NCBI RefSeq assembly: GCF_002797675.1
Contig: NZ_PGEX01000001.1
Span: 806,001-870,000, forward strand
Direction of reading: 5' to 3'
Source: Hallerella succinigenes
GTDB lineage: Bacteria; Fibrobacterota; Fibrobacteria; Fibrobacterales; Fibrobacteraceae
Length of the DNA stretch: 64,000 bases
Shown here in pieces: positions 13,254-64,000 of the stretch. Below the pieces are notes generated by a model that was not told where the DNA came from, made no database searches, and worked only from the letters and a program-made list of their open reading frames with translations. The position numbers and the translations under genes were made by a program. The stretch's first letter is position 1. Every line of letters begins with the position of its first letter.

Positions 13254-14024
13254 TCATTCAGTTTGGCTATGTAGATTAATTCTTTTAGAGCAGTTGCTAA
13301 AAACAACCCGTTTCAATGCGTCTACAAGCCCAGCATAATCAAGGGTTCGCAAAGGTTCTTTTCCACCAGCATAGCTGCAGTGATTGACTTTCTTGTCCCA
13401 AGACACCGACACAAATTTTGAAGGGATTTCGCATTTTAACAAACAAGACGGACTTTGGAATGGTTTGCCATTTGCAACAAAAGCCATTTGCTTTGCCGTA
13501 GGAGTATCACCGAATCGTTTCGGAATTAGAATAATTTGATTTGATTGCAGAGTTTCTAAAAGTTTTGCATAAACCTCTTGACATTCCGCAATACAATACG
13601 AAGAAACCAAAAGATTTACACCGGGCTTAATTTTTGTTTTACTCAATTCAACGACTTGTTCAATCACTCTAATCACTTCTTTCTGATTATCTGGATTATG
13701 TATCGTCAAATGAATTTTATCGGGGCTATGCTTCAACAATTTTTCAAAGACATCCCTTTTCAAAAGCGGAAGCCCATTTGACGTCACACTTAAATAGGTT
13801 ATTGGATAAAGAGCATCCATTATTTTAAAAATGCCTTCATACTCAAAAGGTTCCCCACCACCTAAAGAAACTGCCTTGATTCCATTTTTTACACAATCGG
13901 AGGCAAAATCAATTACCTCCGCAGGTTTCCACATTATTGCACCTTCAGGATTGCTGTGGTTATAGCAGAACGAGCAACGCTTGGAACAATAGTTTGACAA
14001 ATCTATGGAGAGAAGTTCTTTCAT
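13254..14024 (-). CDS. Radical SAM enzyme of unknown substrate
   Basis: The protein has 256 residues from ATG 14024. The cluster-binding motif C-x3-C-x2-C is CSKRCSFC (Cys 13, 17, 20), and the SAM-binding GGGEP is at residues 55-59. Additional cysteines near the C terminus (SCLLKCEIP, NHCSYAGG, FSNCSKR) could hold an auxiliary cluster, as in SPASM/Twitch-type enzymes, but the spacing is not canonical. The start overlaps the upstream gene by ATGA (stop TGA 14021-14023, start ATG 14022-14024), so translation is coupled. The upstream MVENAM extension is less likely. The pair is AT-rich compared with its surroundings, suggesting transfer. Enzyme class firm; substrate unknown. Confidence 0.85.
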   Translation of the reverse strand: MKELLSIDLSNYCSKRCSFCYNHSNPEGAIMWKPAEVIDFASDCVKNGIKAVSLGGGEPFEYEGIFKIMDALYPITYLSVTSNGLPLLKRDVFEKLLKHSPDKIHLTIHNPDNQKEVIRVIEQVVELSKTKIKPGVNLLVSSYCIAECQEVYAKLLETLQSNQIILIPKRFGDTPTAKQMAFVANGKPFQSPSCLLKCEIPSKFVSVSWDKKVNHCSYAGGKEPLRTLDYAGLVDALKRVVFSNCSKRINLHSQTE

Positions 14025-15349
14025 TGCATTTTCAACCACTTTTCAATGTCTTCTTTATCTAGAATCAACAGAAGTTGTTTTCCTCTATATGGTTTATTTG
14101 CCAAACATTCAATTTCCTTTTTTCGATTATCTAATTCACTTAACAAATAATATGGATACTCTATTCCAAGAATGGAAATTTTATTATTAGAAACTTCTAA
14201 TTCATTCAAAACATTTTCAAAAATACTATCTTCAATAATAACGACATGCGGATTTATAATATCAAAGACCTGATCCCAATATTCAACAAAACCAGAGAAA
14301 TATTTCCACCAATCTTTTTTGAGCATTTTAATCTTGGATATGAACATTTCGTCCCTTTTCCCAGAAAAACTTCTAATTCGTTCTTTTTCTTCAAAATAAG
14401 ATCTTTCTTCATACGGGAATATAGCACCGCTTTTCATACAAAGAACAGGGTCTTCTTGAAGTAAAGAATTGTCATCGTAACAGCTTCCAATAAAAAGAAT
14501 TGTGGGTCTTTCCGTATAACATTTCGTAAATAACGAAACTGGCAAATAAGATGTGTTAATATACTTGAAATTTCCATTAGTCAATGGCAACAAATCAAAG
14601 CCATGATTACCTATACTAACATAATCATTGCCACAACTGTAAGAAGGTAAAAATTCTGCTATTTGAAGTTTTGAACATTCGTCAAAACTTATGGGTAGCC
14701 GCAAAACCCTTTTTTGATCATCTGGATTGAATTGAGTTATCTTAAACTTACATTTAGGAACAAAGGTACGTTCCGTTAAATGAGCAGTCCAATACGGTTG
14801 CTGATAAAGATAGAATGGGAAAATTTCAAATAAATCATCGTGAACATAATTATACGACCCTGTTTTTTCATCATACACATCATTATTTATATCAAAGAAA
14901 AATATCTTTGACTTTAAAATGATTTTTCTTTGAATCAACTCATTTGCTGTAGTCTTCGCTTCATAAGGTTCAATGAGATAAAGTCCTTTTGATTTGGAAT
15001 AACAGGCATGTAGATACTTATTTTTTAAGGCCGACTTCAGAAATTCTTCCGTTTGCGCCACATCAATTAAAACGATATATTCACCATATTCATCAAATTC
15101 ACTAGGCGTTTTTAATTTTTCAATAATGATGTCGGCTTGATTATCATCAAAATTAAAATTACGAATGCCTTTTTCATCTGGTAAAACAAAATCTTCTTCC
15201 AAGACTCCGTTAGCACTGCTTTCAGGAATGTCACACGGAATAGGGCCGTTTTCATTAAAATCAAAAATGGCGATGTTGCCGTCTTTATCAGCAATGAACC
15301 AACCCGTGGACATTGAGTGAGTTGCAGGATATTCCTTATCTATAAACAT
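14021..15349 (-). CDS. Unknown 442-aa partner of the radical SAM enzyme
   Basis: I recognise no domain in these 442 residues. The N terminus is acidic and beta-rich (THSMSTGWFIADKDGNIAIF, then DFNENGPIP). The middle has several cysteines (KNKYLHACYSKSKG, VPKCKFKI). The C-terminal third alternates hydrophobic strands and charged helices, as in a Rossmann-like fold: PTILFIGSCYDDN, INPHVVIIEDSIFENV, ISILGIEYPYYLLSELDN and KQLLLILDKEDIEKWL. It overlaps the radical SAM gene by four bases and is the first gene of the pair. It may be the substrate carrier, scaffold or target-recognition partner of that enzyme; this is inference from context only. Confidence 0.65.
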   Translation of the reverse strand: MFIDKEYPATHSMSTGWFIADKDGNIAIFDFNENGPIPCDIPESSANGVLEEDFVLPDEKGIRNFNFDDNQADIIIEKLKTPSEFDEYGEYIVLIDVAQTEEFLKSALKNKYLHACYSKSKGLYLIEPYEAKTTANELIQRKIILKSKIFFFDINNDVYDEKTGSYNYVHDDLFEIFPFYLYQQPYWTAHLTERTFVPKCKFKITQFNPDDQKRVLRLPISFDECSKLQIAEFLPSYSCGNDYVSIGNHGFDLLPLTNGNFKYINTSYLPVSLFTKCYTERPTILFIGSCYDDNSLLQEDPVLCMKSGAIFPYEERSYFEEKERIRSFSGKRDEMFISKIKMLKKDWWKYFSGFVEYWDQVFDIINPHVVIIEDSIFENVLNELEVSNNKISILGIEYPYYLLSELDNRKKEIECLANKPYRGKQLLLILDKEDIEKWLKMQ

Positions 15350-30076: not shown

Positions 30077-30861
30077 CTTTTTAAGGGTCAACTACCTATC
30101 CAATTGCGAACGCACTGCGTTCGCAATTGAACTGGTCGCAATATCGTATGTTGATTCAGATTCCTGACCCCGACAAGCGCGAATATTACGAACTTGAGGC
30201 GGTGAACAATTCTTGGAACGGGCGCGAACTCGAACGCCAAATCAACAGCCAGCTATACGAGCGCCTTTTGCTCAGTAACGATAAGGAATCCGTGCTGGCG
30301 GTCGCTCGCAAGGAACGCATCCCCGAAACCCCGCAAGAGGTCATCAAGGATCCGATGGTCCTGGAATTTCTTGGGCTGGAAAGGAATCCCGCCTTTTATG
30401 AAAGCGATCTGGAAGGCGCGATTATTTCGCATATCACTGATTTCCTTCTCGAACTGGGTAAGGGATTTGCCTTTGTTGCTCGGCAGAAGCGGATTATGCT
30501 CGAAGACGATGAATTCTTCATTGACCTCGTTCTTTACAACAGGTTGCTTCGCTGTTTTGTGGTTATTGAAATCAAGACGGGCAAAATCACGCATCAGGAC
30601 CTCGGCCAGCTCCAGATGTACGTGAATTACCACGACCGCATTGAAAAACTGCCCGATGAAAATCCTACCATCGGCATTCTTTTGTGCGCAGGCAAAAACG
30701 ACACTGCCGTGAAAATGACTTTGCCCGAAGACAATAAGACTATCCTTGCTAGTGAGTATAAGTTGTATCTGCCCACCACTGAGCAACTGGTCGGCGAAAT
30801 CAACGAGGCCAAGGAACTCGTGAAAAAATCCAAGCGAATAAAGAAAAAATAACGCGTCTCG

Positions 30862-38268: not shown

Positions 38269-39207
38269 TTACTCTCTCTTGACCACCGTTGTAACTTCCA
38301 GCGTATCAGCTTCGCTATAAGGAGTCTTGTATATCAATTTCCAGGTGAAAGAACTATCCTTTAAAGACAATACGTTCATCGCATAAAAATGACGTTCTGG
38401 AGGAGCAGGCATATTCGTGTATTTAGGATTTCCGCAATAAGTAGGATAATTGACGCAATAACATGTAAAGTGCGGAAGCGTACGTCCCAAAACATCAGGA
38501 CATGCAATAGAAAGCTTTGCCGGTTTCGTCTTGAGATTCGAACTTAATGAATCTTTGCGTTCGCTTTTTTCTTTTGACTTTGCAGGTTTTTGGGAGTCCA
38601 TTTTCTTTCCTGTTTCATAGAACATTACACCACTAGGCAAATCAATAGCCGTCAACTCGTAAGAAGACAAGAACGTTTTTGAATGAGAACAAGGGAATGT
38701 TTTCTTTACCGAAGCAAATTGTTTTTTAAAATAAGCGGTGTCAAATTTTGCATATACAGGACGAGGGATATAACTCGTTTTCTTGAACAAACCAAAATTT
38801 AAATTTATGATGGCAGTATCTTGATACACATTTGTATCCGGTTTATATTTCCGCGAAAGCGGATATCCTCTCAATTTATCATCGGGGCACAGCTCAGCAT
38901 GACAGTGAAATTCAGCCCCATTTATTTCACAGTTAGAAGCACGCCATACTGAAATTTCGCCCTTGTGATCTTTAATGCGATAATACACCAAAGCATTTTC
39001 AGGAATACGATTGCTATAGTACAGAAAGAAAAGTGTTCCTGCAACCAAAATAAGCAAAATAGGTAATGCAATTTTCAAAGCAAATTTGAACTTCACATCG
39101 CACAACATACAAAAGTAAAACAGTGCGCGCAAGAGACTTCTCAAAGTCGTTCGCTGTTTTACCTCTCTTACCGTACTTGTTTTCCAAATTTTAATTGTAT
39201 ATTCCAT
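38269..39207 (-). CDS. Membrane-anchored protein of unknown function
   Basis: The protein has 312 residues. A basic N-terminal tail of about 45 residues precedes one transmembrane helix (FALKIALPILLILVAGTLFF). The extracytoplasmic part has paired cysteines (SNCEINGAEFHCHAELCPDD, and ACPDVL...FTCYCVNYPTYCG) and a Lys/Ser-rich linker (SQKPAKSKEKSERKDSLSS). The start is uncertain: MLCDVKFKF, 33 codons in, is an alternative. Divergently placed from the coiled-coil gene at 39242, with only 34 bases between. No family recognised. Confidence 0.6.
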   Translation of the reverse strand: MEYTIKIWKTSTVREVKQRTTLRSLLRALFYFCMLCDVKFKFALKIALPILLILVAGTLFFLYYSNRIPENALVYYRIKDHKGEISVWRASNCEINGAEFHCHAELCPDDKLRGYPLSRKYKPDTNVYQDTAIINLNFGLFKKTSYIPRPVYAKFDTAYFKKQFASVKKTFPCSHSKTFLSSYELTAIDLPSGVMFYETGKKMDSQKPAKSKEKSERKDSLSSNLKTKPAKLSIACPDVLGRTLPHFTCYCVNYPTYCGNPKYTNMPAPPERHFYAMNVLSLKDSSFTWKLIYKTPYSEADTLEVTTVVKRE

Positions 39208-39241
39208 TTAGCACCATCTTTTATATGGAGATGTATGGTTT

Positions 39242-40930
39242 ATGCAGTTGGTAAGAACTTCCTTAAATTTAAGAAGTGATTTGCGCTGGGCTGAGGATGC
39301 CTATGAAAAAGGAATTTTCGCCTGGATAAACGGAAGTAAAAATAGTGCGACCAAGAAAAAGAATTATGAGGCGATTCTACGAATATTGCCCCCACGTATA
39401 GATTTTGTCAAGGAACCGAACAAAAAGTTCAAGTTTGCAGGAGAGTCGCTTGAATATGAATCCTTCTCTTTTGATGGTAAGGACTATCTGGGCTTCCTTT
39501 TTACAAACACCCAGTTGGGACGTAGTTGGAACACCCGCGTAGCCTTTTGTCGAAACACAAAGCATGTACAATGCTTTGTCTCGCTAGAATGTGACCTGCA
39601 AAAGGGCGCCTCTCTACCTTCGATTTCTAAGCCGAAGATTTTGGATTATCTCATCAAGTTCCAGGATGGAGATGGCGGATTAGACATAACAGACAAGCCC
39701 CATATAATTGAGTACAACGATATTTCGAAAGCAAAATGTGCCTTGACAGCAAAATTAGGCAACGTTTTGCCCATCGTTTATTTGAGCTGTTCCGAGCGCA
39801 CACATTCTTTAAAACCAAGCGAGGTTGCGAAAAAACTTTTTGGGGTTGCCCACGTTCTTGCTGAAAAAGATAAGACGATATATGAGCGTCTCCGCATCGA
39901 CATGAAGGGCGCTAATTATCCCAAAAGAGGTGAAATAGGAATCTGTTATCAAGGCCAGCCAATAGATATTTTTAATCGCTATTCTGTGGTTGATTGGTCT
40001 GAAAATCCTGAAACACTTGTCCAAGACATATTCCTCAAGATTCTAAAGAAGAATCTGTCTCTCAAGTTTAATTTTACCTGGGATGATTTCCTGGATGCGC
40101 AGACAAAGTTTACTGTCGAACAAACTGAAAAAGAACGACTTGCCAAGATTCAGACAGTGGAGAAAATGCGCAATGAATTGGCAGCGTCCAAGTCAACGAC
40201 CGAGGAGCTTTCTAAGCAAGTAAAGAAGCTGATGCAAGAACTGGAGGCTGTTTCCAAAGAACGGGACCAGTACAAAGATGAACACGCACGATACATTATG
40301 TTGGAAAAACTGTACAAGAGCTGCAAGGAAGAGCGTGATTCTTGGGAGAATCTTGCGATACAGTCTGATGATAAACGAATTGCCGCCGAAAAGGAACTCG
40401 CCGACGCAAAACAATCGCTGCATAATACGAACGTCAAAAACGCAGCTCTTGAAAAGAACTTTAATACAGCTTCTAGCAAGAACGTACAAAACTTGCCACT
40501 TGTCATGCCCAAAGATATCCAGATGTTCCCCGATGAATATAAATGTCAGCTTATTAGCATCTTACGGCTGGCTCAAAAAAATGTTCGCAAAACAACCATA
40601 TCACCCAAAATGCGAACGGCGGATATAATTGAAAAAATCTTAGCAGCCAATGTGAACGCAATGAATTGCTATGAGGAAATGAATAAGAATAAAGAAATTC
40701 TGGAATCCGTTGCAAAACAGCAGAATCTTAATTCCAGTGATGGGACCAAAGCGATGAAGCCGTTTAACATGGAAATCGTAAAGAAAGGGAATAATCACGG
40801 CAAAATACGATTTGTCAAGGATGAAAGCGAAAGTTTCCTTGGTTCAGAAGCATCAACAGCCAGCGAAACGGCCCGTGGTGGCAAGAATCAAGCCGCCGAC
40901 CTGGTAAAAGCTATGCTTTGGTCTGATTAA
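39242..40930 (+). CDS. Coiled-coil protein upstream of the Wadjet operon, unknown
   Basis: The protein has 562 residues. Residues 1-280 form a globular domain without a recognised family (SLECDLQKGASLPSISKPKI, NVLPIVYLSCSERTHSLKPS). About 285-415 is a strong coiled coil (TEKERLAKIQTVEKMRNELA, EELSKQVKKLMQELEAVSKE). The C-terminal part is helical and polar. GGAGATG precedes the ATG. It ends with its own terminator (40953-40984), so it is not cotranscribed with the SMC genes. The coiled coil and position beside an SMC operon make it a candidate accessory factor, but this is inference. Confidence 0.6.
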   Translation: MQLVRTSLNLRSDLRWAEDAYEKGIFAWINGSKNSATKKKNYEAILRILPPRIDFVKEPNKKFKFAGESLEYESFSFDGKDYLGFLFTNTQLGRSWNTRVAFCRNTKHVQCFVSLECDLQKGASLPSISKPKILDYLIKFQDGDGGLDITDKPHIIEYNDISKAKCALTAKLGNVLPIVYLSCSERTHSLKPSEVAKKLFGVAHVLAEKDKTIYERLRIDMKGANYPKRGEIGICYQGQPIDIFNRYSVVDWSENPETLVQDIFLKILKKNLSLKFNFTWDDFLDAQTKFTVEQTEKERLAKIQTVEKMRNELAASKSTTEELSKQVKKLMQELEAVSKERDQYKDEHARYIMLEKLYKSCKEERDSWENLAIQSDDKRIAAEKELADAKQSLHNTNVKNAALEKNFNTASSKNVQNLPLVMPKDIQMFPDEYKCQLISILRLAQKNVRKTTISPKMRTADIIEKILAANVNAMNCYEEMNKNKEILESVAKQQNLNSSDGTKAMKPFNMEIVKKGNNHGKIRFVKDESESFLGSEASTASETARGGKNQAADLVKAMLWSD

Positions 40931-40952
40931 AAATCTCTACTTATTGAGTTTT

Positions 40953-40984
40953 GCCTAGCCTACTTGACTAGGCTTCTTTTTTTT
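40953..40984 (+). terminator. Terminator after the coiled-coil gene
   Basis: GCCTAG-cctacttga-CTAGGC followed by TTC and eight T. Confidence 0.8.
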
Positions 40985-40994
40985 CAATTCACCC

Positions 40995-41024
40995 TTTGTA
41001 AGCGAGGAATGAAAAAGGTATAAA
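40995..41024 (+). promoter_or_regulatory. Putative promoter of the Wadjet-type operon
   Basis: TTTGTA (40995) and TATAAA (41019) at 18-bp spacing. The predicted start (about 41031) lies only a few bases before ATG 41035 and 90 bases before the jetA ATG. Confidence 0.4.
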
Positions 41025-41034
41025 CTAGAGTAGT

Positions 41035-41124
41035 ATGAACAACGAAACTTTCCTCCCACAACAACATTTTGAACATTGGAAAAAGGATCCAAAAGCCTTT
41101 ATTTTAATATTTTTCCCACTATGA
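41035..41124 (+). other. 29-codon leader frame overlapping the jetA start
   Basis: MNNETFLPQQHFEHWKKDPK-AFILIFFPL ends with TGA 41122-41124, which overlaps ATG 41121 of jetA (ATGA). It may be a coupled leader peptide. Alternatively it is the true N terminus of JetA, thrown out of frame by one extra T in the TTTTT run at about 41110. The protein-like composition favours the second view slightly. Confidence 0.4.
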
Positions 41125-42314
41125 ACAGTTTTCGCTCTATCGACGAACTCATACAAGCTCTTTCACGGGAAAAGACGCTCTTAAAAGAAATGTTCGCAAA
41201 ACGCAAGACGCTTTCGTTCCGGCTAGATTTAGCAGAGACGCTAGTGGATTACAAGATGTCGCGTATCCAGTATCTCGTAGATTACGGAGTCATTCGCGAC
41301 AACGGAAACTTTCTGGAACTCGAAGACGTCTATCTGAAATTTTTCGAGGAAGTCCTCAAAGTCAACGAAGAAATCAATGTTGAAAGCGTCAAGGCAAATA
41401 TTGACCACTTGAACGAAACCATCGAATATTATTTGCAAGAGACCAACGAATCGTCAAAATACAATTATCTTCGTGAAGTTCGTCGTAGCCTGAAAAATAT
41501 TGCGCTAAACACAAAACGAAACGTAATCGACCTCAAGCGTAATGTTGACAACACTTACAAAAACGAGCCGAACTACAAAATCAAAAAGTCAAAACTCAAG
41601 CACCTTGACGAAAAACGAGACGGCATTAAATTACAAATAAAAGAAGCGGAAAGAGTTCTTGAAAATCAGACCGCATTTTTCAAAGTCGCGATGGACGCGG
41701 ACTTGCAAATTGTCATTGACGACCTTCGATACGACCTCAACGAATCTTCGCACAATCTCATCGAAATCGAAAAGCAGATTATCGATTACCTAAACTTGAT
41801 AGACTACCAAAGCGAACTGCTCAAGAAAATCCGTCAGGTGAAATACTTCCGTGATCAGCAAGTGCTCGAAACGAATACCGATGTGGCAAATATGCTTGCT
41901 AACAAAAATCCCGTGTGGATGGAGCCTAGCACCGGGTATCGCATCAAAGTTTCGCTTGATTGGCTCCGTTCAACGGACGGCGGCCTTTCTGTTCTCCGCG
42001 AGGTTCAAAACCGCCGAAAAATTCAAGGTAAACAGCGCAAACAACTCGCTGATCCATTAGACCAAAATGAGATGGCCGCTCAAAGCATCATCATCCCCAT
42101 GGTGGATCAAACCGAAATGAAAAACGGCTTCATGGCCGCAGGTACAGACCTTTTCTATTTTGTCATGAACTACAGTTATCCTTACCCAATCGACCTTGAA
42201 GGAAAACTGGTGCTGTTTTGCCAACTAGTCTCGCAGTTTTCCGATGAACTTGAAATTACGGACAAATACACTGTCGCTGAAGGCTTTGAGTATCCGCTAA
42301 TTTATCCAAGATAG
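41121..42314 (+). CDS. jetA: Wadjet JetA / MksF-like kleisin subunit
   Basis: The protein has 397 residues from ATG 41121. An N-terminal winged-helix-like region (LIQALSREKTLLKEMFAKRK...LVDYGVIRDNGNFLELEDVY) is followed by a long helical middle (KLKHLDEKRDGIKLQIKEAE) and a C-terminal domain. This is the plan of MukF/MksF-type kleisins. It should bridge the JetC SMC heads and bind JetB. Position, size and the three following genes identify it as JetA of an anti-plasmid SMC system. The subtype cannot be set by eye. The start may be affected by a frameshift (see 41035-41124). Confidence 0.78.
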   Translation: MNSFRSIDELIQALSREKTLLKEMFAKRKTLSFRLDLAETLVDYKMSRIQYLVDYGVIRDNGNFLELEDVYLKFFEEVLKVNEEINVESVKANIDHLNETIEYYLQETNESSKYNYLREVRRSLKNIALNTKRNVIDLKRNVDNTYKNEPNYKIKKSKLKHLDEKRDGIKLQIKEAERVLENQTAFFKVAMDADLQIVIDDLRYDLNESSHNLIEIEKQIIDYLNLIDYQSELLKKIRQVKYFRDQQVLETNTDVANMLANKNPVWMEPSTGYRIKVSLDWLRSTDGGLSVLREVQNRRKIQGKQRKQLADPLDQNEMAAQSIIIPMVDQTEMKNGFMAAGTDLFYFVMNYSYPYPIDLEGKLVLFCQLVSQFSDELEITDKYTVAEGFEYPLIYPR

Positions 42315-42320
42315 GTTTTT

Positions 42321-42872
42321 ATGCTGAAACATTCCAAAGAAATTTTTGATATTCTGAGCAAGGGCGGATTTCTCTCGCTCAATAGCGTTGTGCAGGCAAA
42401 CCGCAATTATTACGATGTGATAGAAGACGGCTTTGATGCCTACCGCGATTACTACGAGGGAGTCGGTTTCGTACTGGAAAGCGGTAACGGTTATTTTTAT
42501 TTTTCGAGACCAGAGCCTAAAGTAAATGCGGTTGACAAACTGGCCCGTTTCTGCGACTGGATTGACCGTTTGGATTTTCTAAAAACATTTAATTCAGCAT
42601 TCGGCTCTGGATATGTTTTTACCAAAGCAAAAATTTTAGAACGCATTTCTTGCGATATAGAACTGAAAGAAAAAGTTTCAAAACTTTACGCAGACAAAAA
42701 GACACACGCAGAAGTCATTGAAAAACTCGTTGACGACTTGGAGAAAATCGGATTTGTCGAACAGGAAAATGAATTAGAAGGTTCGTACAAAGTGACCGCC
42801 GCATTCCATTATCTTGAAGAAATGGTGAATTGCTTGAACATTGTCGAGGGGGCAACCGATGAGGTTCCTTAA
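42321..42872 (+). CDS. jetB: Wadjet JetB / MksE-like KITE subunit
   Basis: The protein has 183 residues. Two small winged-helix-like segments are visible (FDILSKGGFLSLNSVVQANR and KLYADKKTHAEVIEKLVDDL then KIGFVEQENELEGSYKVTAA), as in KITE proteins that bind the kleisin middle. It starts 6 bases after jetA and overlaps jetC by 14 bases, so the three are translated together. Length and context match JetB/MksE. Confidence 0.8.
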   Translation: MLKHSKEIFDILSKGGFLSLNSVVQANRNYYDVIEDGFDAYRDYYEGVGFVLESGNGYFYFSRPEPKVNAVDKLARFCDWIDRLDFLKTFNSAFGSGYVFTKAKILERISCDIELKEKVSKLYADKKTHAEVIEKLVDDLEKIGFVEQENELEGSYKVTAAFHYLEEMVNCLNIVEGATDEVP

Positions 42873-45800
42873 CAAGATTATTTTCATCAACAGCGCTCAT
42901 GTACGCTATGCAGAAATCGGGCTTAACGGAAATGTTCACCTGATTGGAACGCAGGGCGTAGGCAAGAGTACGTTGCTCCGTGCATTACTGTTCTTTTACA
43001 ATGCAGACAAGCAACGTCTCGGCATCCCGAAAGAAAAGAAATCCTTTGACGATTTTTATTTTGAACAAGCAAATTCGTATATTGTCTATGAAGTTGTTCG
43101 CGACGAAAGCGCATTCTGCGTTCTCGTAAACAAAACTGCAGGGCGTGCTGTATTCAGATTTATTGATGCTCCTTACAAAAAAGAATGGTTGATTGACAAA
43201 CAAGGAGAAGTCACCGCCGAAATACCGACGATTCGTACCCGGCTAGAAGGAGCCTATATGAGCCCGATTGTCGATCGCTACGAGCAGTTTCGAGACATCA
43301 TTTATGGAAATCATCAGGCCGTTGCACGCAAAGAATTTTATAAATTTTCCATCGCAGAAAGCAGCCGCTATCAGAATATTCCGCGAAGCATCCAGAACGT
43401 GTTTTTAAATTCGAAATTGGATGCCGATTTTATCAAGGAAACGATTATCCAGTCAATGGATAGCGAAAGTTCGTTTATTGATCTCGGATATTTTCGGCAA
43501 CAAGTTTCGGAGTTCGAGCAGGAATACACCGATATCGGATTGTGGTTTAGCTACAATAAACGTGGCGAATGCGAAACTCGCATTGACGCAGAACGCGTCG
43601 TAACGCTTTATCGAACGCTGTTGCAACTCAAGAAAAATATAGACGATTGCGGACGGCAATTGAATTACGCTTACCGCACCGCAAAAGAACAGCTCCCTTC
43701 ACTTGCGATTGAAATTGAAAAGGCGAATGCATCTCTTAACGATACGATTCGTTTAATCGGTGAAGAAACCGGCAAGTATAACCGTGAACGCGATGGCTTA
43801 AATGCGAGCCTCACTCTTGTCAAAGACAAGTTGAAAAAATGCCGCGAAAAATCGCAGGAATACCAAGCACAAAACATCGAAGAAGTTCTAAAAAAGCAAG
43901 AACGCGAAAGTTCACTCAAAGTCGAAAAAGAACATCTCGAAGAACGATTGCATCTGCTCACGCGAGAATTTGACGATGTCAAGGAAAAATACGACAATCT
44001 TCTAAAGCAAGCAAGGCAAGCTTTTGAAGAATTCAAGCAAAATCAAAATGCACGTCTGAACGAACGCAATGCTGAATTGCTCAAAAAACAACAAGATATT
44101 CTGCAAAAATTTGAACAGTCGCGAGCCTTAATTTTTGACCGTTTCGAAGAAAAAATATCAAACGTCCGTGCAGAAAAGGAAGCTCTTAGCAGCGAGAAAA
44201 ATTCCTGCGAAAAGAAGTTGCTTGAGCTCAACTACATTCACCCGTTTGCAGAAAAAATTGAAGCATGTCGTTCGGAAATTTCGAAATTAGACGTTTGCGA
44301 AAATCAAACCAAGATTGCAAAAACCGCAGCACAAGCCGAACTGAATAAACTCACCGCACAGCGAGATGCCGAACAGGCGAAAAACCGCACAGAATACGAA
44401 AAACAAAATGACTCCCTGCTCGTCGAAGCCAAACAAAACGTGGCGAAGTTAAAAGAACTGGATAACCTTCTCGAAAAGCAAAAAGGGTCGCTATATGAAT
44501 GGCTTACGCAGAATAAACCCGGCTGGGAAAACACCATCGGCAAAGTAGCTGACGAAGAATCAATTCTTTACAACACAGGACTTTCGCCAGAATTAATTGT
44601 TGAGGTTGCGGCTCAGGAAGCGATAGACGAATCCTTATTTGGAGTCAAGGTAAACCTCGAAGATTTGCCCATTCGCGTACGCACACCCGAAGAAATTTCA
44701 GCCGAACGCAAAACCACTTTAAAAGCAATCGAAGAAAACAAAGCTCATGCAACCGAGTTAGCCGATGCACTCGAAAAGATGAATGCCGCCGTTGATCGCA
44801 GTTATTCACCCAAGATAAAGTCATTGCTTGACAAAATCCGCGATTGCGATACAGAATTGGTGCAACTTCCGATAAAGCGGAAACGATCCGAAAACGAACT
44901 TGCGTCCATTCTGCAAGCCGATAAAGCTGAAATCGAAAAACGCAAAAAAGAAATCCAGTCCAAGATAAACGATATCGCGACAAAAATTCTCAATGCGGAA
45001 GATTCGCTCAAAAAACTGACAACAGAAAAGACACAAGAACTCAAAGCAAACGAAAAGGCGAAACAGCGAGAACAGAAATTGCAACAAGAAGAATTTGATG
45101 AATTCAAAATCCAGATTCTCGCCGAAATCGAATCTCGTAAAAAAGAGTTTGAAAAAGAACGCGAAGATTTGCTCCAAAAACGCGATGATGAACTTAGAAA
45201 CAAGAACATCGATACAACTGCACTCAAGGATTGCGAAGCTGAAATTGCAACAGTCCAGCGCAAGCTAGATGACATCGAAAATCACCGCGAATTCGTTGCA
45301 CGTTACCGCTACGACAAACAGGAACTTTTCGACCACGAAGACGAATTCAAAAGCGAAAAGCAGAATGTAGAAGACAAGCTAAGCGATTTACAACAGAAAT
45401 TCAACGCTCGGAAGGTTAGGCTCGACGCGAAAAAAACAGAACAAGAAAAGACGCTGCAACAGCACCGCGACCGCGAAAAAACACTGCAACAATCTATCGA
45501 AGAAACGGACAAGTTCGCCGCATCCAGTTTTTGCCCCGAAAACATCAAAGACCTTGGCGAAACGCCCAACGCACGGCTTTGTACCGAAATATTGAGTGAA
45601 CTCAAAGAATCGCTCATAAACAGCCAAAAGCGAAGCAAGGATCTCGAAGTCGCATCAAATATATTCCGAGGAAGATTCTCGAAACGCAATACGTTCAAAT
45701 TCAAGACGGAACTCAACACCGAAGCAGACTTTATGGAATTTGCGGACAACCTGAGCGATTTTCTGCTGAACGAGAAAATCGAAGATTACCGCGAACGCAC

Positions 45801-46554
45801 CAGCAACCGCTACTCCGATATTCTCGCACGAATTGCAAAAGAGATTGGCGATGTCACACGCCAAAAAACGGAAATCGAGAAAATCATCAGCGGCGTGAAC
45901 CGGGACTTTATCGAAAAAAATTTTGCAGGAGTCATCAAAAGTATTGCGCTCCGCACAGAAGAATCAAGCGACAAACTGATGCGGCTGATGCTAGCCATCC
46001 AAAAGTTTTTCACCGAAAATCAGTACGCTCTTGGCGAGATTAATTTATTCTCCACGGGCAATACCGAAAATGCGAACCGCGAAGCGGTCAACTTGCTACT
46101 GCAATTCGTGAAATCTCTGAACGAAGAATCCAACCGCACGCAGCTGAATCTCAGCGATTCGTTCCGTTTGCAATTCCGCGTACAAGAAAACGACAACGAT
46201 ACCGGCTGGATTGATAAAATTTCGAATGTCGGCTCCGAAGGCACGGACGTGCTCGTGAAAGCGATGGTGAACATTATGCTCATCAACGTTTTCAAGACGC
46301 AGGCATCGCGCAAGTTCGGCGAATTCAAGCTCCACTGTATGATGGACGAAATCGGAAAACTTCACCCGAAAAACGCAAACGGCATCTTGAAATTTGCGAA
46401 CAGCCGAAACATCTATCTGGTCAACGGTTCGCCTACCACGCAAAGCGTATCGGAATACCGCTACACCTATCTGCTCGAAAAGAACGCAAAATCGCAGACC
46501 GTGGTAAGGCCTCTCATGACGAGAGTTCAACCCACATCGCCAGCCAAAGGGTAG
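42859..46554 (+). CDS. jetC: Wadjet JetC / MksB-like SMC ATPase
   Basis: The protein has 1231 residues. The N-terminal head has Walker A GTQGVGKST at 30-38. Long coiled-coil arms follow (about 230-1010), with a central globular hinge near 560-640 (SLYEWLTQNKPGWENTIGKV). The C-terminal head ends with Walker B-type LHCMMDEIGKL and NSRNIYLVNGSP. It is the motor that extrudes DNA loops and positions the JetD nuclease on plasmids in Wadjet systems. Start ATG 42859 has GAGGGGG upstream and overlaps jetB; the longer frame from 42841 is not preferred. Intact, no frameshift. Confidence 0.9.
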   Translation: MRFLNKIIFINSAHVRYAEIGLNGNVHLIGTQGVGKSTLLRALLFFYNADKQRLGIPKEKKSFDDFYFEQANSYIVYEVVRDESAFCVLVNKTAGRAVFRFIDAPYKKEWLIDKQGEVTAEIPTIRTRLEGAYMSPIVDRYEQFRDIIYGNHQAVARKEFYKFSIAESSRYQNIPRSIQNVFLNSKLDADFIKETIIQSMDSESSFIDLGYFRQQVSEFEQEYTDIGLWFSYNKRGECETRIDAERVVTLYRTLLQLKKNIDDCGRQLNYAYRTAKEQLPSLAIEIEKANASLNDTIRLIGEETGKYNRERDGLNASLTLVKDKLKKCREKSQEYQAQNIEEVLKKQERESSLKVEKEHLEERLHLLTREFDDVKEKYDNLLKQARQAFEEFKQNQNARLNERNAELLKKQQDILQKFEQSRALIFDRFEEKISNVRAEKEALSSEKNSCEKKLLELNYIHPFAEKIEACRSEISKLDVCENQTKIAKTAAQAELNKLTAQRDAEQAKNRTEYEKQNDSLLVEAKQNVAKLKELDNLLEKQKGSLYEWLTQNKPGWENTIGKVADEESILYNTGLSPELIVEVAAQEAIDESLFGVKVNLEDLPIRVRTPEEISAERKTTLKAIEENKAHATELADALEKMNAAVDRSYSPKIKSLLDKIRDCDTELVQLPIKRKRSENELASILQADKAEIEKRKKEIQSKINDIATKILNAEDSLKKLTTEKTQELKANEKAKQREQKLQQEEFDEFKIQILAEIESRKKEFEKEREDLLQKRDDELRNKNIDTTALKDCEAEIATVQRKLDDIENHREFVARYRYDKQELFDHEDEFKSEKQNVEDKLSDLQQKFNARKVRLDAKKTEQEKTLQQHRDREKTLQQSIEETDKFAASSFCPENIKDLGETPNARLCTEILSELKESLINSQKRSKDLEVASNIFRGRFSKRNTFKFKTELNTEADFMEFADNLSDFLLNEKIEDYRERTSNRYSDILARIAKEIGDVTRQKTEIEKIISGVNRDFIEKNFAGVIKSIALRTEESSDKLMRLMLAIQKFFTENQYALGEINLFSTGNTENANREAVNLLLQFVKSLNEESNRTQLNLSDSFRLQFRVQENDNDTGWIDKISNVGSEGTDVLVKAMVNIMLINVFKTQASRKFGEFKLHCMMDEIGKLHPKNANGILKFANSRNIYLVNGSPTTQSVSEYRYTYLLEKNAKSQTVVRPLMTRVQPTSPAKG

Positions 46555-46565
46555 AAGGAATTTTT

Positions 46566-47483
46566 ATGGCATATACTATTACAACGTCCTTACTGAATCG
46601 TCTCATTGCATTGGCGAAAGGGGCGGAACTATCTTCGAGCGATTGTAAGGGAACCATCTTTAATGAACTCGTCCAAGAAGGTTTACTCATTACAATTCCC
46701 AAAGGCAGAGGTTCATGCTGTAAAGCCCCAAATGGGAAAGCCCTTAGAGTGTACCTTGCGACACGTGATGACGCATTCAAAGATCTTGAAAAAACAGAAG
46801 CTATCTATCGTGAAATTTCTTGCTCTGAAGATGGAGCTACACCATTTGCACCAAGAAATATTCAGGCATCAACAACCGGCAATTCCAAAATACGAAAAAC
46901 TCGCAGTTGCAAGGGGTTCTTGGTAAACTGCTACGAACCGATTTTAGTGAGTTTGAATGAAAAAAAATTTGAAATAAATCCTCCCGAAGGCTCTTTCGTC
47001 TTTATCGCTGATTACGAATCTTTTTTTATACCTGAAAATGTGATTGTTGTGGGCGTCGAAAATATGGAAAATTTTCGCTACATCAGTCGTCAACAGAAAT
47101 TATTTCAAGATTACCTCATCAAATGTTTTGGCGACTCCAATTACACCCATGCCTCACTTCTCTTTGTATCTCGCTATCCGCAATCTAGCGATCTTGTCAA
47201 GTGGCTGCAAAACAGCAAAAATTTATATATACATTTTGGCGACCTCGACCTTGCTGGCATCAACATCTATTTGACCGAATTTTTTGCAAGGATTGGTGAC
47301 CGAGCGTCATTCCTGATTCCACCAGATGCCGATAGTCGCATTGCAAACGGATGCCGCGAACGATATGACGATCAAATCTTGAAATTTGAAAAAATGAAAG
47401 TGGCAGACAAACGCGTCCAGCCACTAGTTGACCTTATCAGGAAATACCATAAGGGTTACGATCAAGAAGGTTTTATTGACTAA
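46566..47483 (+). CDS. jetD: Wadjet JetD / MksG-like Toprim nuclease
   Basis: The protein has 305 residues. The C-terminal Toprim fold shows the catalytic Glu in VVGVENMENF (Glu 165) and the D-x-D in HFGDLDLAGI (Asp 226, 228). The N-terminal half holds a winged-helix-like arm (TIFNELVQEGLLITIPKGRG). JetD cleaves circular DNA bent by the JetABC motor and so removes plasmids. GAAGGA precedes the ATG, 11 bases after jetC. All expected acidic residues are present, so the system looks functional. Confidence 0.85.
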   Translation: MAYTITTSLLNRLIALAKGAELSSSDCKGTIFNELVQEGLLITIPKGRGSCCKAPNGKALRVYLATRDDAFKDLEKTEAIYREISCSEDGATPFAPRNIQASTTGNSKIRKTRSCKGFLVNCYEPILVSLNEKKFEINPPEGSFVFIADYESFFIPENVIVVGVENMENFRYISRQQKLFQDYLIKCFGDSNYTHASLLFVSRYPQSSDLVKWLQNSKNLYIHFGDLDLAGINIYLTEFFARIGDRASFLIPPDADSRIANGCRERYDDQILKFEKMKVADKRVQPLVDLIRKYHKGYDQEGFID

Positions 47484-47486
47484 AAG

Positions 47487-47514
47487 CCCCAACGGAGTAT
47501 GATTCCGTCAGGGC
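47487..47514 (+). terminator. Hairpin closing the Wadjet operon
   Basis: AGCCC-ca-ACGGA...TCCGT-ca-GGGCT forms a stable stem right after the jetD stop. The T-tract is poor, so it may be a processing or weak termination site. Confidence 0.5.
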
Positions 47515-47537
47515 TGCTTCAATCCAAAACACTATAA

Positions 47538-48155
47538 GAAAAGATTGACGAACTCGCCGGAGCCGCATCCGTGATTTACCTTGCCATTGGCGGGAACCTC
47601 GCGGGAGTGCTTTGCATTAGCGACCCTCCGCGTGACGAAGCCGCCGAAGCCATCCGCATGCTGCGCGAACGCGGAATCAGGCATGTGGCGATGATTACCG
47701 GCGATAGCCAGAAAGCCGCTGAACGCACGGCGCAACTTTTGGGCATCGACACATTCTTTGCGCAGGTGCTGCCCGAAGACAAGCACCGCTATGTGGAAAA
47801 AATGAAGGCCGAAGGCCGCCGCGTGATTATGGTGGGCGAAGGAATCAACGATGCGCCCGCATTGGCTGCCGCGAACGTGTCGGTTGCCATGAGCGATGCC
47901 AGCGACATTGCCCGCGAAACCGCCGATGTGACCCTCCGCATCGAAGACCTGCGCGACCTCGCCGAACTCCGCACATTGAGTACGCAGCTCATGGAACGCA
48001 TCCAGGCGAATTACCGCTTTATCGTCGCTTTCAACACGTCGCTCCTGGCCACAGGTTTCTTTGGGACACTTGCCCCCTCGACCTCGGCCCTGCTGCATAA
48101 CCTCTCGACCATGGCGATTTGCGCCAAGAGCATGACGCCGTTAAAGCGCGCGTAG
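47538..48155 (+). pseudogene. 5'-truncated heavy-metal P-type ATPase
   Basis: The frame opens after TAA 47535-47537 and encodes only the last 206 residues of a P1B-type ATPase. It covers the end of the N domain (VLCISDPPRDEAAEAIRMLR), MITGDS, the hinge GEGINDAPALAAANVSVAM and the last two helices. The transmembrane metal-binding and DKTGT phosphorylation parts are gone. The break lies between jetD and this fragment, so arrival of the Wadjet block or a later deletion removed the 5' part. Its terminator at 48198-48225 is intact. Confidence 0.85.
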
Positions 48156-48197
48156 GGATGTAACGCTCGAAAACGGCCCAAATTATCAAAAAAAGCT

Positions 48198-48225
48198 AAA
48201 AAGGTAGTCTATGGACTGCCTTTTT
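48198..48225 (+). terminator. Terminator of the P-type ATPase remnant
   Basis: AAAAAGGTAGTC-tatg-GACTGCCTTTTT, a long A/T-flanked stem ending in T5. Confidence 0.8.
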
Positions 48226-48272
48226 GCTTAGTTTTTGATGAAATTTTATACATTTGTTCACTAATTTAGGTA

Positions 48273-48349
48273 CGAAAAAATGTCGAAATGAATTGATTTT
48301 ATGTGCGGAAAAATGTAATTTACAAGGGGAAATATATGCGGAAAAATGT
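48273..48349. promoter_or_regulatory. Three CGGAAAAATGT-type sites spaced 33 bp
   Basis: CGAAAAAATGT at 48273 and CGGAAAAATGT at 48306 and 48339, exactly 33 bp apart, ending four bases before the ATG of the DUF4143 ATPase. A matching AGGAAAAATGT precedes the second DUF4143 ATPase at 62877. Confidence 0.5.
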
Positions 48350-48352
48350 AAA

Positions 48353-49633
48353 ATGAAACGAATCGCCCTAGAAAATCTGCTTAAATGGAAAGAAAGCGCA
48401 AACCGAAAGCCCTTGATTCTTAACGGGGCGCGTCAAGTCGGCAAGACCTGGCTTTTGCGGGAATTTGCCAAGACTGCATATCAGAAAGAAGCCTATATCG
48501 TTTGCCGAAAAAATGAGTTGGTGAAACAGGTGTTCGCCCGCGATTTTGACATAAAACGAATCTTGCGCGATTTAAGGGCCTTAAGCAAGGTTGACATCAC
48601 TCCCGGTGACACGTTGATTATTTTGGACGAAGTTCAAGATGTTCCCGAAGCCATCGAAGCGCTGAAATATTTCTACGAGCAAGCGCCCGAATATCATATT
48701 GCCGTTGCGGGATCGTTGCTTGGAATTTCGCTCCATCAGGGAGTGTCGTTCCCTGTCGGAAAAGTGGACGAGCTAGACATTTTCCCGATGAATTTTATGG
48801 AATTCCTTGACGCCATCGGCGAACAGAACACTGCGGATCTCATTGCAAAAAGAGATTTTGCTAGCATTGCTCCGTTGCACGAAAAGTGCGTCGATTTGCT
48901 CAGGCAATACTACTATGTGGGCGGCATGCCCGAAGCCGTTAAACAGTATGCTGAAACCGGGGCTCTGCAGAGCGTGCGCGAAATACAGAAAAGCATCTTG
49001 CGTGGATATGAGCAGGATTTTTCAAAACATGCGCCCAAAGACCAGGTTGCAAAGATAAAGCTTGTTTGGAAAAGCGTTCCCTCGCAACTGTTCAAGGAAA
49101 ACAAGAAGTTTATTTACGGGGCACTCCGCAAGGGCGCCCGTGCAACGCAATACGCAGAAGCTATCGAATGGCTTGTGGATTCCGGCTTGCTTTACAAGGT
49201 GTCTCGCGTTTCTAAACCCGCTTTGCCATTAAGCATTTATGAAGAACTGAACATTTTCAAGTTATATGCATTGGATGTCGGTCTGTTGGGTGCGATGGCA
49301 AATACAGATTCTTCGCAGATTCTAATCAAAAGCGACCTGATTGCAGAATTCAATGGCGGACTTGCAGAACAGTTTATTTTGCAACAAATGAAAAGTAAAC
49401 AGATTGACCCGATTTACTACCACTCGACGGACGATTCAAGGCTAGAATTAGATTTCCTGATACAGTCGGAAGGCCGCCTCTTGCCCATCGAAGTCAAGTC
49501 CGGAGAATCAGTGCGCTCCAACTCCCTTTCGACTCTGCTGCAAAACACGCCAGGACTTCAGGCAATTCGCTACTCCATGCGCCCCTATAAGGAGCAAGCA
49601 TCTTTGACTAATGTTCCGCTTTATGCGGCGTAA
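48353..49633 (+). CDS. AAA+ ATPase with DUF4143 C-terminal domain
   Basis: The protein has 426 residues from ATG 48353. Walker A is NGARQVGKTWLLREF and Walker B TLIILDEVQDVPE, with sensor AVAGSLLG. The DUF4143 nuclease-like C-terminal domain holds LELDFLIQSEGRLLPIEVKS. Typical of a large family in gut anaerobes, thought to act on DNA; function not established. The frame is open to 48254, but the upstream codons only translate the repeated operator-like sites, and MKRIALENLLKW is the family N terminus. A terminator follows at 49676-49702. Confidence 0.9.
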   Translation: MKRIALENLLKWKESANRKPLILNGARQVGKTWLLREFAKTAYQKEAYIVCRKNELVKQVFARDFDIKRILRDLRALSKVDITPGDTLIILDEVQDVPEAIEALKYFYEQAPEYHIAVAGSLLGISLHQGVSFPVGKVDELDIFPMNFMEFLDAIGEQNTADLIAKRDFASIAPLHEKCVDLLRQYYYVGGMPEAVKQYAETGALQSVREIQKSILRGYEQDFSKHAPKDQVAKIKLVWKSVPSQLFKENKKFIYGALRKGARATQYAEAIEWLVDSGLLYKVSRVSKPALPLSIYEELNIFKLYALDVGLLGAMANTDSSQILIKSDLIAEFNGGLAEQFILQQMKSKQIDPIYYHSTDDSRLELDFLIQSEGRLLPIEVKSGESVRSNSLSTLLQNTPGLQAIRYSMRPYKEQASLTNVPLYAA

Positions 49634-49675
49634 AAATGTTGAACCGTATCGCCCCAAAATCTATAAAATCTCGTT

Positions 49676-62876: not shown

Positions 62877-64000
62877 ATGGAATACACTCTCAGACGAAAG
62901 TTGGACTCTTTTTTGGTCGATTGGAAGGCAAATCCCGACCATTTGCCACTCATTATAAAGGGTGCGAGGCAGGTCGGAAAAACTTCTTCCATTACGCATT
63001 TTGCGAAGAACTACAAGAGTTTCATCTCGATAAACTTTATCGAGGAACCCCAGTACAAGAGAATTTTCGAGAAGGGCTTCAAACCGGACACGGTTATCCG
63101 AGAAATTTCGTTCTTGAATTCGGATTGGGAGTTCATTCCGCACGATACGCTCATCTTGTTCGACGAAATGCAGGAGTGTCCCGATTGCACCACGTCGCTC
63201 AAGTTTTTTAAGTTGGATGGCCGCTTCGACGTCATCTGTTCGGGTTCGCTGCTTGGAGTGCACTACAAGGAAATTTCGTCAGTCAGTGTCGGCTTCAAGG
63301 AAGACTATGAAATGCATTCCCTGGATTTCGAGGAGTTCCTTTGGGCAAAAGGCTACAAGCAGGAGCAAATCGATTCCATCTACGAACATATGGTATCTCA
63401 GACGCCATTCTCTAACATCGAATACGATGTATGGATTGAAAATTTCAGGGAATACATGACCATCGGGGGAATGCCCGCCATTGTAGACAAATTTGTATCA
63501 CAGAAAAATTTTTCAGGGGTGTTGGCGGCGCAGAAAAAGATTCTCCAGGACTACGAGGACGACATCACAAAATACGCCGAAGGACTAGACAAAGAAAAGA
63601 TAAAGAATGTCTATAACCACATTCCCGTTTTCCTTGGCAAAGAGAACAAGAAATTCCAGATAACGAAGGTCGCCACCGGGGCGCGTTCCAGAGAATATGT
63701 GGGGACAGTCGAATGGCTGAACGATGCGGGCATCATCAACCGTTGCTACTGTCTGGATCAGCCGGAACTTCCGCTAAAAGGCAACTACAAGCCTAATGAC
63801 TTCAAAATTTATTACCGCGATACGGGACTGCTGATTGCTTCGCTCGACGACGAAGCCCAAGAGGACTTGCGCGCAAACAAGAATTTCAATGCGTACAAAG
63901 GCGCTATCTACGAAAATGTCGTTGCCGACATGCTCGTAAAAGAAGGTTACGGGCTCTACTATTACAAGAACGAGAAATCCACCCTTGAAATGGATTTTTT
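62877..64000 (+). CDS. AAA+ ATPase with DUF4143 domain (3' end outside window)
   Basis: 374 codons are visible from ATG 62877-62879. It starts MEYTLRRKLDSFLVDWKANP; Walker A is KGARQVGKTSSITHFAK, Walker B DTLILFDEMQECPD and sensor VICSGSLLGV. The DUF4143 part begins with REYMTIGGMPAIVDKFVSQK and YYRDTGLLIASLDDEAQEDL. The frame is open to the last base. It is a paralogue of the gene at 48353 but clearly diverged. Role unknown, as for the family. Confidence 0.88.
   Translation, partial: MEYTLRRKLDSFLVDWKANPDHLPLIIKGARQVGKTSSITHFAKNYKSFISINFIEEPQYKRIFEKGFKPDTVIREISFLNSDWEFIPHDTLILFDEMQECPDCTTSLKFFKLDGRFDVICSGSLLGVHYKEISSVSVGFKEDYEMHSLDFEEFLWAKGYKQEQIDSIYEHMVSQTPFSNIEYDVWIENFREYMTIGGMPAIVDKFVSQKNFSGVLAAQKKILQDYEDDITKYAEGLDKEKIKNVYNHIPVFLGKENKKFQITKVATGARSREYVGTVEWLNDAGIINRCYCLDQPELPLKGNYKPNDFKIYYRDTGLLIASLDDEAQEDLRANKNFNAYKGAIYENVVADMLVKEGYGLYYYKNEKSTLEMDF

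Follow-up and report, generated by a model that had tools for sequence, protein, structure and literature searches.

Does a compact gene cluster in Hallerella succinigenes, a gut-dwelling member of the Fibrobacter group, encode a complete Wadjet/MksBEFG-type complex built around a structural maintenance of chromosomes (SMC) ATPase and, if so, to which known type does it belong? The cluster lies in a stretch of 64,000 nt (the window; GCF_002797675.1, contig NZ_PGEX01000001.1, positions 806,001–870,000, forward strand) of a host genome that forms a single contig of 3.13 Mb. All five open reading frames (ORFs) that an earlier reading of this DNA (the original prediction) had claimed are present at those positions with their frames open. 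Its central proposal, an intact Wadjet/MksBEFG-type operon of overlapping or closely spaced genes, is borne out: jetA, jetB, jetC and jetD (MksF, MksE, MksB and MksG) are intact and tightly packed on the plus strand between 41121 and 47483. This segment very probably encodes a complete Wadjet/MksBEFG-type SMC complex belonging to a Fibrobacterota–Bacteroidota branch, with a putative accessory anti-plasmid role. The operon comprises the following genes:

41121–42314, plus strand: jetA (mksF), 397 amino acids, kleisin-like; start from ortholog alignment, with an AlphaFold2 model and Foldseek.
42321–42872, plus strand: jetB (mksE), 183 amino acids, predicted KITE-type; Pfam PF21980 (MksE) and hhalign to DUF4194-type JetB.
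42859–46554, plus strand: jetC (mksB), predicted SMC ATPase of 1231 amino acids with Walker A and B; Pfam PF12128 (DUF3584), hhalign and Walker motifs.
46566–47483, plus strand: jetD (mksG), predicted Toprim nuclease subunit of 305 amino acids; model, VIA-align and invariant E165, D226 and D228.

The placement of jetA stood but its start did not: TTG 41076 was replaced by ATG 41121 because homologues begin there. Homologue starts also set that of jetC at ATG 42859 (the longest frame is slightly too long), giving a 14-base overlap with jetB that most relatives share. To these genes we compared the best 80 of 252 relatives returned at E ≤1e-3 by one contig scan with two peptide patterns, together with seven further Fibrobacterota loci; three of the 80 are contigs among those seven, so that the 87 fetched loci represent 84 distinct ones. 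(The jet contig of genome G140, for example, is that of locus L078, from F. intestinalis ATCC 43854.) The order A–B–C–D was seen in the window and in 75 of the 80 scan loci and, given recurrence in the fetched loci, chance is not an issue.

Two subunits were recognized by sequence profiles. JetB matches Pfam PF21980 (MksE) at 6.2e-42 and JetC matches PF12128 (DUF3584, MukB-like) at 2.1e-60, both far above the cut-off. In hhalign comparisons with canonical sets (9 or 10 DUF4194-type proteins each, solely from this phylum), JetB reached 86% (E 5e-6) against the JetB set and JetC 86% against the JetC set, compared with at most 4.6% for mismatched A–D pairs. The Walker A (GTQGVGKST) and Walker B (MMDEIGKL) motifs that had been proposed are in JetC and are invariant in all six aligned JetC proteins, except for the K of Walker B. 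By sequence, JetC is therefore assigned as an SMC-type ATPase with both Walker motifs, and JetB as a KITE subunit of the MksE family.

For JetD, the evidence is mainly structural. Its model (pLDDT, the predicted local distance difference test score, 92.7; 56 sequences) aligned in VIA-align with the C. glutamicum nuclease 8b7f_A (Z 12.8; root-mean-square deviation (rmsd) 3.0 over 153), topoisomerase VI-A 1d3y_A (Z 12.0, rmsd 5.7 over 211) and P. aeruginosa JetD 7til_B (Z 11.2, rmsd 3.4 over 154). Overall, nuclease, Topo VI-A, JetD and Spo11 entries scored Z 10.2–12.8, whereas other folds reached at most 5.5; these include winged-helix regulators over residues 1–72, which suggests that the N-terminal part of the modelled protein is a winged helix. 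All 56 aligned JetD proteins carry the predicted Toprim residues E165, D226 and D228, and eight canonical JetD proteins show the same succession of E-N, DxD and a C-terminal EQE. The C-terminal QE pair is conserved at 90% or more in the branch and is invariant in 8/8 canonical proteins. Pfam gave a weak, sub-threshold DUF7281 match. Judged from the model, JetD is a predicted Toprim nuclease subunit with the E and DxD residues. Tyrosine Y204, 22 residues before D226, is likewise invariant (56/56). In C. glutamicum MksG, the tyrosine proposed to be catalytic (Y258) precedes D279 by 21 residues, as stated in the accessible part of PMC10123090; from motif spacing alone, Y204 may be its counterpart, and we offer this as a lead.

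JetA is the most divergent subunit. The expectation that JetA and JetB would match kleisin or KITE profiles held for JetB (Pfam MksE) but not for JetA, which matches no sequence profile tried; Pfam returned a single weak match, far under its cut-off. Its AlphaFold2 model (pLDDT 81, 52 sequences) nevertheless retrieved in Foldseek, at ranks 1–4, chains of MukBEF entries (9gm7, 7nz2 and 7nyw) and of E. coli JetABCD (8q72), at E 1e-3 to 0.04, with MukF(1-287) at rank 6; 9gm7_C and 7nz2_C1 had E about 1e-3 and 8q72_E had E 2e-3, with template modelling (TM) scores of 0.15–0.30. In VIA-align, chains of MukF-containing entries had Z about 12–13, and a Wadjet-II JetABC chain had Z 10.4 (rmsd 31 over 298). 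Fold ranks and gene position thus favour a kleisin, and weak E values, low TM-scores and the lack of a sequence profile oppose it; on the model, JetA is probably a kleisin. DUF2397, tried as the JetA family, was a wrong guess: it matched neither in the genome itself nor in the controls, and is uninformative.

Several of these results weigh against the assignment of a complete complex. The JetA fold match is modest (TM 0.15–0.30; predicted TM-score (pTM) of the model 0.44), with just one match at E ≤0.001, and in VIA-align the helix bundles of syntaxin and STAT score as high or higher (Z 13–14). PADLOC JetA models match none of 52 branch proteins, and hhalign to the canonical JetA set gives 0.2%. 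For JetD, Foldseek ranked Spo11 first (E 1.5e-4), the unrelated MutS-beta at ranks 3–5 and JetD sixth (E 0.01), and the protein falls short of canonical JetD by about 100 residues (305 versus 381–418 amino acids). Its hhalign value of 56% over 55 Toprim columns of canonical JetD is tempered by a control, the family of the 562-residue protein encoded upstream of the operon, whose coiled coil yields 18% with canonical JetC. Finally, jetD is missing from two loci that keep jetABC, L107 (B. fragilis S82) and L129, although their DNA continues beyond.

Which Wadjet type is nearest? Hidden Markov model (HMM) comparison with the Wadjet subtypes, suggested as a check on the operon, gave weak matches or none. 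Against PADLOC Wadjet I–III models, window JetA matched nothing, JetB no Jet model, JetC the JetC1 model at 3.2e-5 and JetD the JetD1 model at 7.1e-4: by sequence, type I is the nearest subtype, but none of I, II or III is matched strongly. In the branch, the best single JetB1 model matches 10/43 JetB proteins (best E 2.2e-6), one of which also matched JetA2 at 0.007. Models for type II and III JetC found nothing in 167 Fibrobacterota genomes or the controls, in a search at E ≤1e-20 only, which is not proof of absence. Searches of PDB sequences with small and deep Jet alignments returned no matches, or unrelated names only. Judged by titles and the beginnings of abstracts, the matches listed include no open PMC paper on Wadjet or Mks systems of this branch.

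The branch is patchy in Fibrobacterota and is also found in Bacteroidota. Full-length JetC occurs in 8 of the 167 Fibrobacterota genomes; in five more the matches are weak or incomplete, including a fragment of 43% identity where a contig ends. DUF4194-type Wadjet is found in 17 of the 167, none of which is among the eight with branch JetC. Most of the best 80 scan contigs have titles that refer to Bacteroidales, Flavobacteriia or related groups; Fibrobacter is named in three. All four jet genes are present in 75 of these loci, including L094 (Prevotella disiens), in which jetD lies in two frames (13651–14506). Three of the other five are cut at a contig end (L079 without jetA; L131 and L142 without jetD). 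JetC relatives also occur on ten plasmid records (coverage of 80% or more in six); among viral contigs, the pattern scan revealed no relative. Other Fibrobacterota genomes encode an SMC-like ATPase of another kind, about 900 amino acids long (L033:1483-4263, L034, L032, L030 and L031), of which the L033 protein gave weak JetC1 and LmuB matches.

Some operons of the branch carry embedded DNA (four of the seven Fibrobacterota loci and four of the 80 scan loci, two being common to both; the scan loci, L076, L077, L097 and L137, are among the 75). In L036–L039 (Fibrobacter), 1.7–1.8 kb separates jetA from jetB (5752–7239 in L036) and holds an ORF6N gene in L038, or otherwise an ORF6N remnant and a YhcG-type nuclease. 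Between jetB and jetC, L097:8380-10011 is a Schlafen/AlbA_2-type gene whose terminal residues are the same as those of jetB, and L137:1678-9984 contains eight genes, including RhuM, AbiEii-like, REase-ARP and metallophosphatase genes. The window has a YhcG-type nuclease ORF of its own at 30127–30852, covering just the last part of the DUF1016 N-terminal domain; from its sequence, it is probably truncated.

What would such a complex do? Studied systems combine loop extrusion with nuclease cleavage, according to the available text of a review (PMC10586767) and of the MksG paper (PMC10123090). By analogy, JetC would form an ATP-driven SMC ring, closed and clamped by the putative kleisin JetA and the KITE subunit JetB; JetABC would extrude DNA loops and, once a small circular molecule had been fully reeled in, the Toprim centre of JetD would cut it. 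For the window proteins, the extrusion of loops, a preference for small circles and the cutting step are all inferred from those systems, and plasmid restriction is a candidate role on the same grounds. We favour an accessory anti-plasmid role because the operon is patchy (8/167) and because the host genome encodes an ordinary Smc (983 bits) as well.

The strongest alternative is that the operon encodes a chromosome-organizing condensin similar to MksBEF, with JetD acting as a regulator or topology factor and not as a plasmid nuclease. Both the MksE and the DUF3584 families include condensins, and P. aeruginosa MksBEF organizes the chromosome (PMC10586767, in the part consulted). Furthermore, excerpts of a Hi-C study (PMC10197239) describe two Bacteroidetes gut species in which no known condensin was found, and attribute the alignment of the chromosome arms there to unidentified SMC complexes. 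Because that study, in those excerpts, found no known condensin there, the divergent branch is a candidate for the Bacteroidetes organizer. The two loci that keep ABC without JetD fit such a role, but JetD is present in 76 of the 80 scan loci, two of the four misses are cut at a contig end, and its acidic residues are invariant in the 56 aligned proteins. The patchy Fibrobacterota distribution and the ordinary Smc of the window genome also argue against a condensin, as does a positive Smc search in a Bacteroides control genome. We regard this alternative as unlikely, and retain the accessory anti-plasmid complex as the preferred reading.

The operon has neighbours on both sides that bear on how it arrived:

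39242–40930, plus strand: gene for a 562-residue protein with a coiled coil; apparent passenger outside the operon, possibly distantly HEC-07-like; not found beside 84 distinct jet loci.
40957–40984, plus strand: terminator-like stem and T-run 3' of the 562-residue gene; pattern scan and folding.
47484–47541, no strand assigned: hairpin-bearing flank directly right of jetD; matched in 4/4 relatives, and folding.
47539–48155, plus strand: 3' end of a heavy-metal P-type ATPase gene that a deletion has truncated (residues 497–697 of 699).
48148–49650, plus strand: separate insert directly behind the ATPase stop, holding an AAA/DUF4143 gene (48254–49633; PADLOC PDC-S01).

The upstream gene had been put forward as a possible recurring Wadjet neighbour, and one could suppose that it is a functional accessory that arrived together with the operon: it is adjacent, on the same strand and in the same block, outside which homology breaks at about 39216 and 47483. 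This idea did not hold up. The gene was found beside none of the seven other Fibrobacterota operons and none of the 80 scan loci (84 distinct loci besides the window), in a search that covered the DNA fetched around jet loci, some of which have little DNA on one side owing to a contig end. Full-length relatives occur in seven other genomes, one of which (G077, contamination 8%) carries the operon as well, on a separate contig. Ten further genomes give weak partial matches, including G141, whose jet operon sits on another contig. When the window genome is counted, two of eight carriers have both (P 0.049), but this genome had been selected because it contains the two together; without it, one genome is observed against 0.30 expected (P 0.26), and the co-occurrence in G077 is therefore no more than chance allows. 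Between gene and operon lies the terminator-like site, which supports the claim that the gene has its own terminator as far as a stem and T-run go (folding z −2.3), although the pattern alone is weak, the scan having found 15 such sites versus 10.8 in shuffled sequence. Relatives lie elsewhere, some of them by other defence genes: type I restriction–modification and an integrase (L047), PDC-M11A/B and type II restriction–modification (L049), PDC-M09A (L048) and a viperin-like gene (L046). An accessory function is thus very unlikely, and we conclude that this is an independent candidate defence gene that looks like an unrelated passenger.

As for the protein itself, the predicted coiled coil agrees with weak coiled-coil family matches at residues 286–432. 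All eight family members weakly match PADLOC HEC-07 (best E 7.8e-8), the window protein colinearly over about 110 residues (355–464 versus 343–447 of 553; E 2.9e-6). However, the match falls partly over the coiled coil, and JetC2, JetC3 and LmuB also match two or three of the eight, more weakly. Kinship with HEC-07 is uncertain because E values are weak, the coiled coil is partly involved and unrelated coiled-coil models match as well; HEC is unmentioned in the main text of PMC8565338 and PMC9252829. Among the scanned part of the neighbours in L043, L044 and L045, nothing matched PADLOC; relatives of the window AAA/DUF4143 gene, at 37% identity, are present in L043 and L046. L049 had been considered as a case of the gene upstream of an SMC-like operon and was rejected, its neighbours being the PDC-M11A/B and restriction–modification genes named above. 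No relative of the protein was found in viral contigs (pattern scan) or phages, and plasmids gave one partial match of 28% identity.

On the right side, the P-type ATPase gene had been described as lacking its 5' part and as marking a junction of the insertion. The loss is confirmed (47539–48155 corresponds to residues 497–697 of a 699-residue relative), but the truncation is not the junction. We examined four relatives, chosen because their ATPase gene has the right-hand neighbours of the window. All four match the bases after jetD over 59–62 bases at 82–98% identity, and in all four these bases lie 11.6–11.8 kb upstream of the corresponding ATPase codon. In G069, bases 47480–47541 (62) match at 98% to L219:1572-1633, and the ATPase part lies at L219:13449-14058 in the same orientation; G098 (97%) and G099 and G137 (82%) have the same order, with 11.6–11.7 kb between. 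Because relatives keep flank and ATPase this far apart, the 5' loss is attributed to a separate deletion of about 11.8 kb, and the flank match places the right edge of the operon at the jetD stop. The joint has a few bases common to both sides, the flank folds into a hairpin (47484–47541; −17.6 kcal/mol, z −4.5), and G+C is 0.595 in the ATPase fragment compared with 0.41 in jetD. Elsewhere, the genome has no other close ATPase copy, only 35% and 30% relatives, and for a 758-residue gene of the missing stretch only a 28% partial relative; the latter gene has no close copy in G140 or G141, and 70–75% copies in G143 and G144.

On the left, homology with the flank of a 312-residue gene ends at about 39216 in three of four relatives and at 39088 in the fourth. 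The block of about 8.27 kb (39217–47483) consists of the operon and the independent 562-residue candidate defence gene. Because the left-flank relatives sit on other contigs than the ATPase, a rearrangement may account for the arrangement instead of a simple insertion of the block. That the operon is a decaying relic, intact in appearance only, is suggested by the adjoining deletion scar and pseudogene but is extremely unlikely given four open frames and retained catalytic residues.

The ATPase gene recurs as a landmark. In another Fibrobacter clade (G077, G105, G127 and G135), the operon lies between an intact ATPase gene and an MMPL gene. The sequences of G105 and G067 correspond until about three bases beyond the ATPase stop, and then once more on the MMPL side; between these parts, G105 has jetABCD and G067 has 1.6 kb of other DNA. 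The ATPase gene is present in 49 of 111 family genomes, and we examined the region behind it in 25. ATPase and MMPL genes stand tail to tail in 14 of these, separated by the operon in four, by at most 310 bp in three and by 1.6–5.4 kb of other DNA in seven; the right-hand genes of the window follow in three (G069, G099 and G137); and neither layout is within reach in eight (G070, G072, G095, G097, G098, G100, G102 and G118). The AAA/DUF4143 insert of the window is shared by G098 (L214:10523-11896; 97.4% amino acid identity) and missing from four related arrangements (G069, G099, G137 and G077:C12). The interval behind the ATPase gene looks like a cargo site. A second AAA/DUF4143 relative, 32% identical, is found in the window at 62913–63998.

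If the branch restricts plasmids, genetic work in Fibrobacter and Bacteroidota would face a concrete barrier that could be removed by deletion, and PADLOC-type models would undercount Wadjet in these groups. Its role also bears on the question of which SMC complexes act in some Bacteroidetes, left unidentified in the excerpts of the Hi-C study (PMC10197239).

How, then, does the branch compare with known systems? With Wadjet type I (JetABCD with DUF4194-type JetB), it has four subunits and their order in common, as well as profile-level kinship of JetB, JetC and JetD, the Toprim E...DxD residues and the C-terminal QE pair; by contrast, its JetA is unrecognizable by profile and shorter (397 versus about 472–517 amino acids), as is its JetD (305 versus 381–418). 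It resembles C. glutamicum MksBEFG in its MksE family subunit and in the top VIA-align match of the JetD model, 8b7f_A ('Nuclease from C. glutamicum'), which we take to be MksG; however, that alignment covers the Toprim half alone (model residues 112–305), and the N-terminal part of branch JetD is shorter. To MukBEF and P. aeruginosa MksBEF it is linked by the MukBEF-entry chains that head the JetA fold search, by the MksE family and by its MukB-like JetC; both are condensins that are not known to include a Toprim nuclease. MksBEF is thought to have lost JetD (PMC10586767, in the accessible text). More tentatively, the branch could be a fourth type of Wadjet in its own right that escapes the PADLOC models: its JetA would be MukF-like, and its short JetD would have, ahead of the Toprim domain, only a small part resembling a winged helix. 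On this reading, the operon would in some members double as a carrier of nested, defence-type cargo and, possibly, organize the chromosome in Bacteroidota without a recognized condensin.

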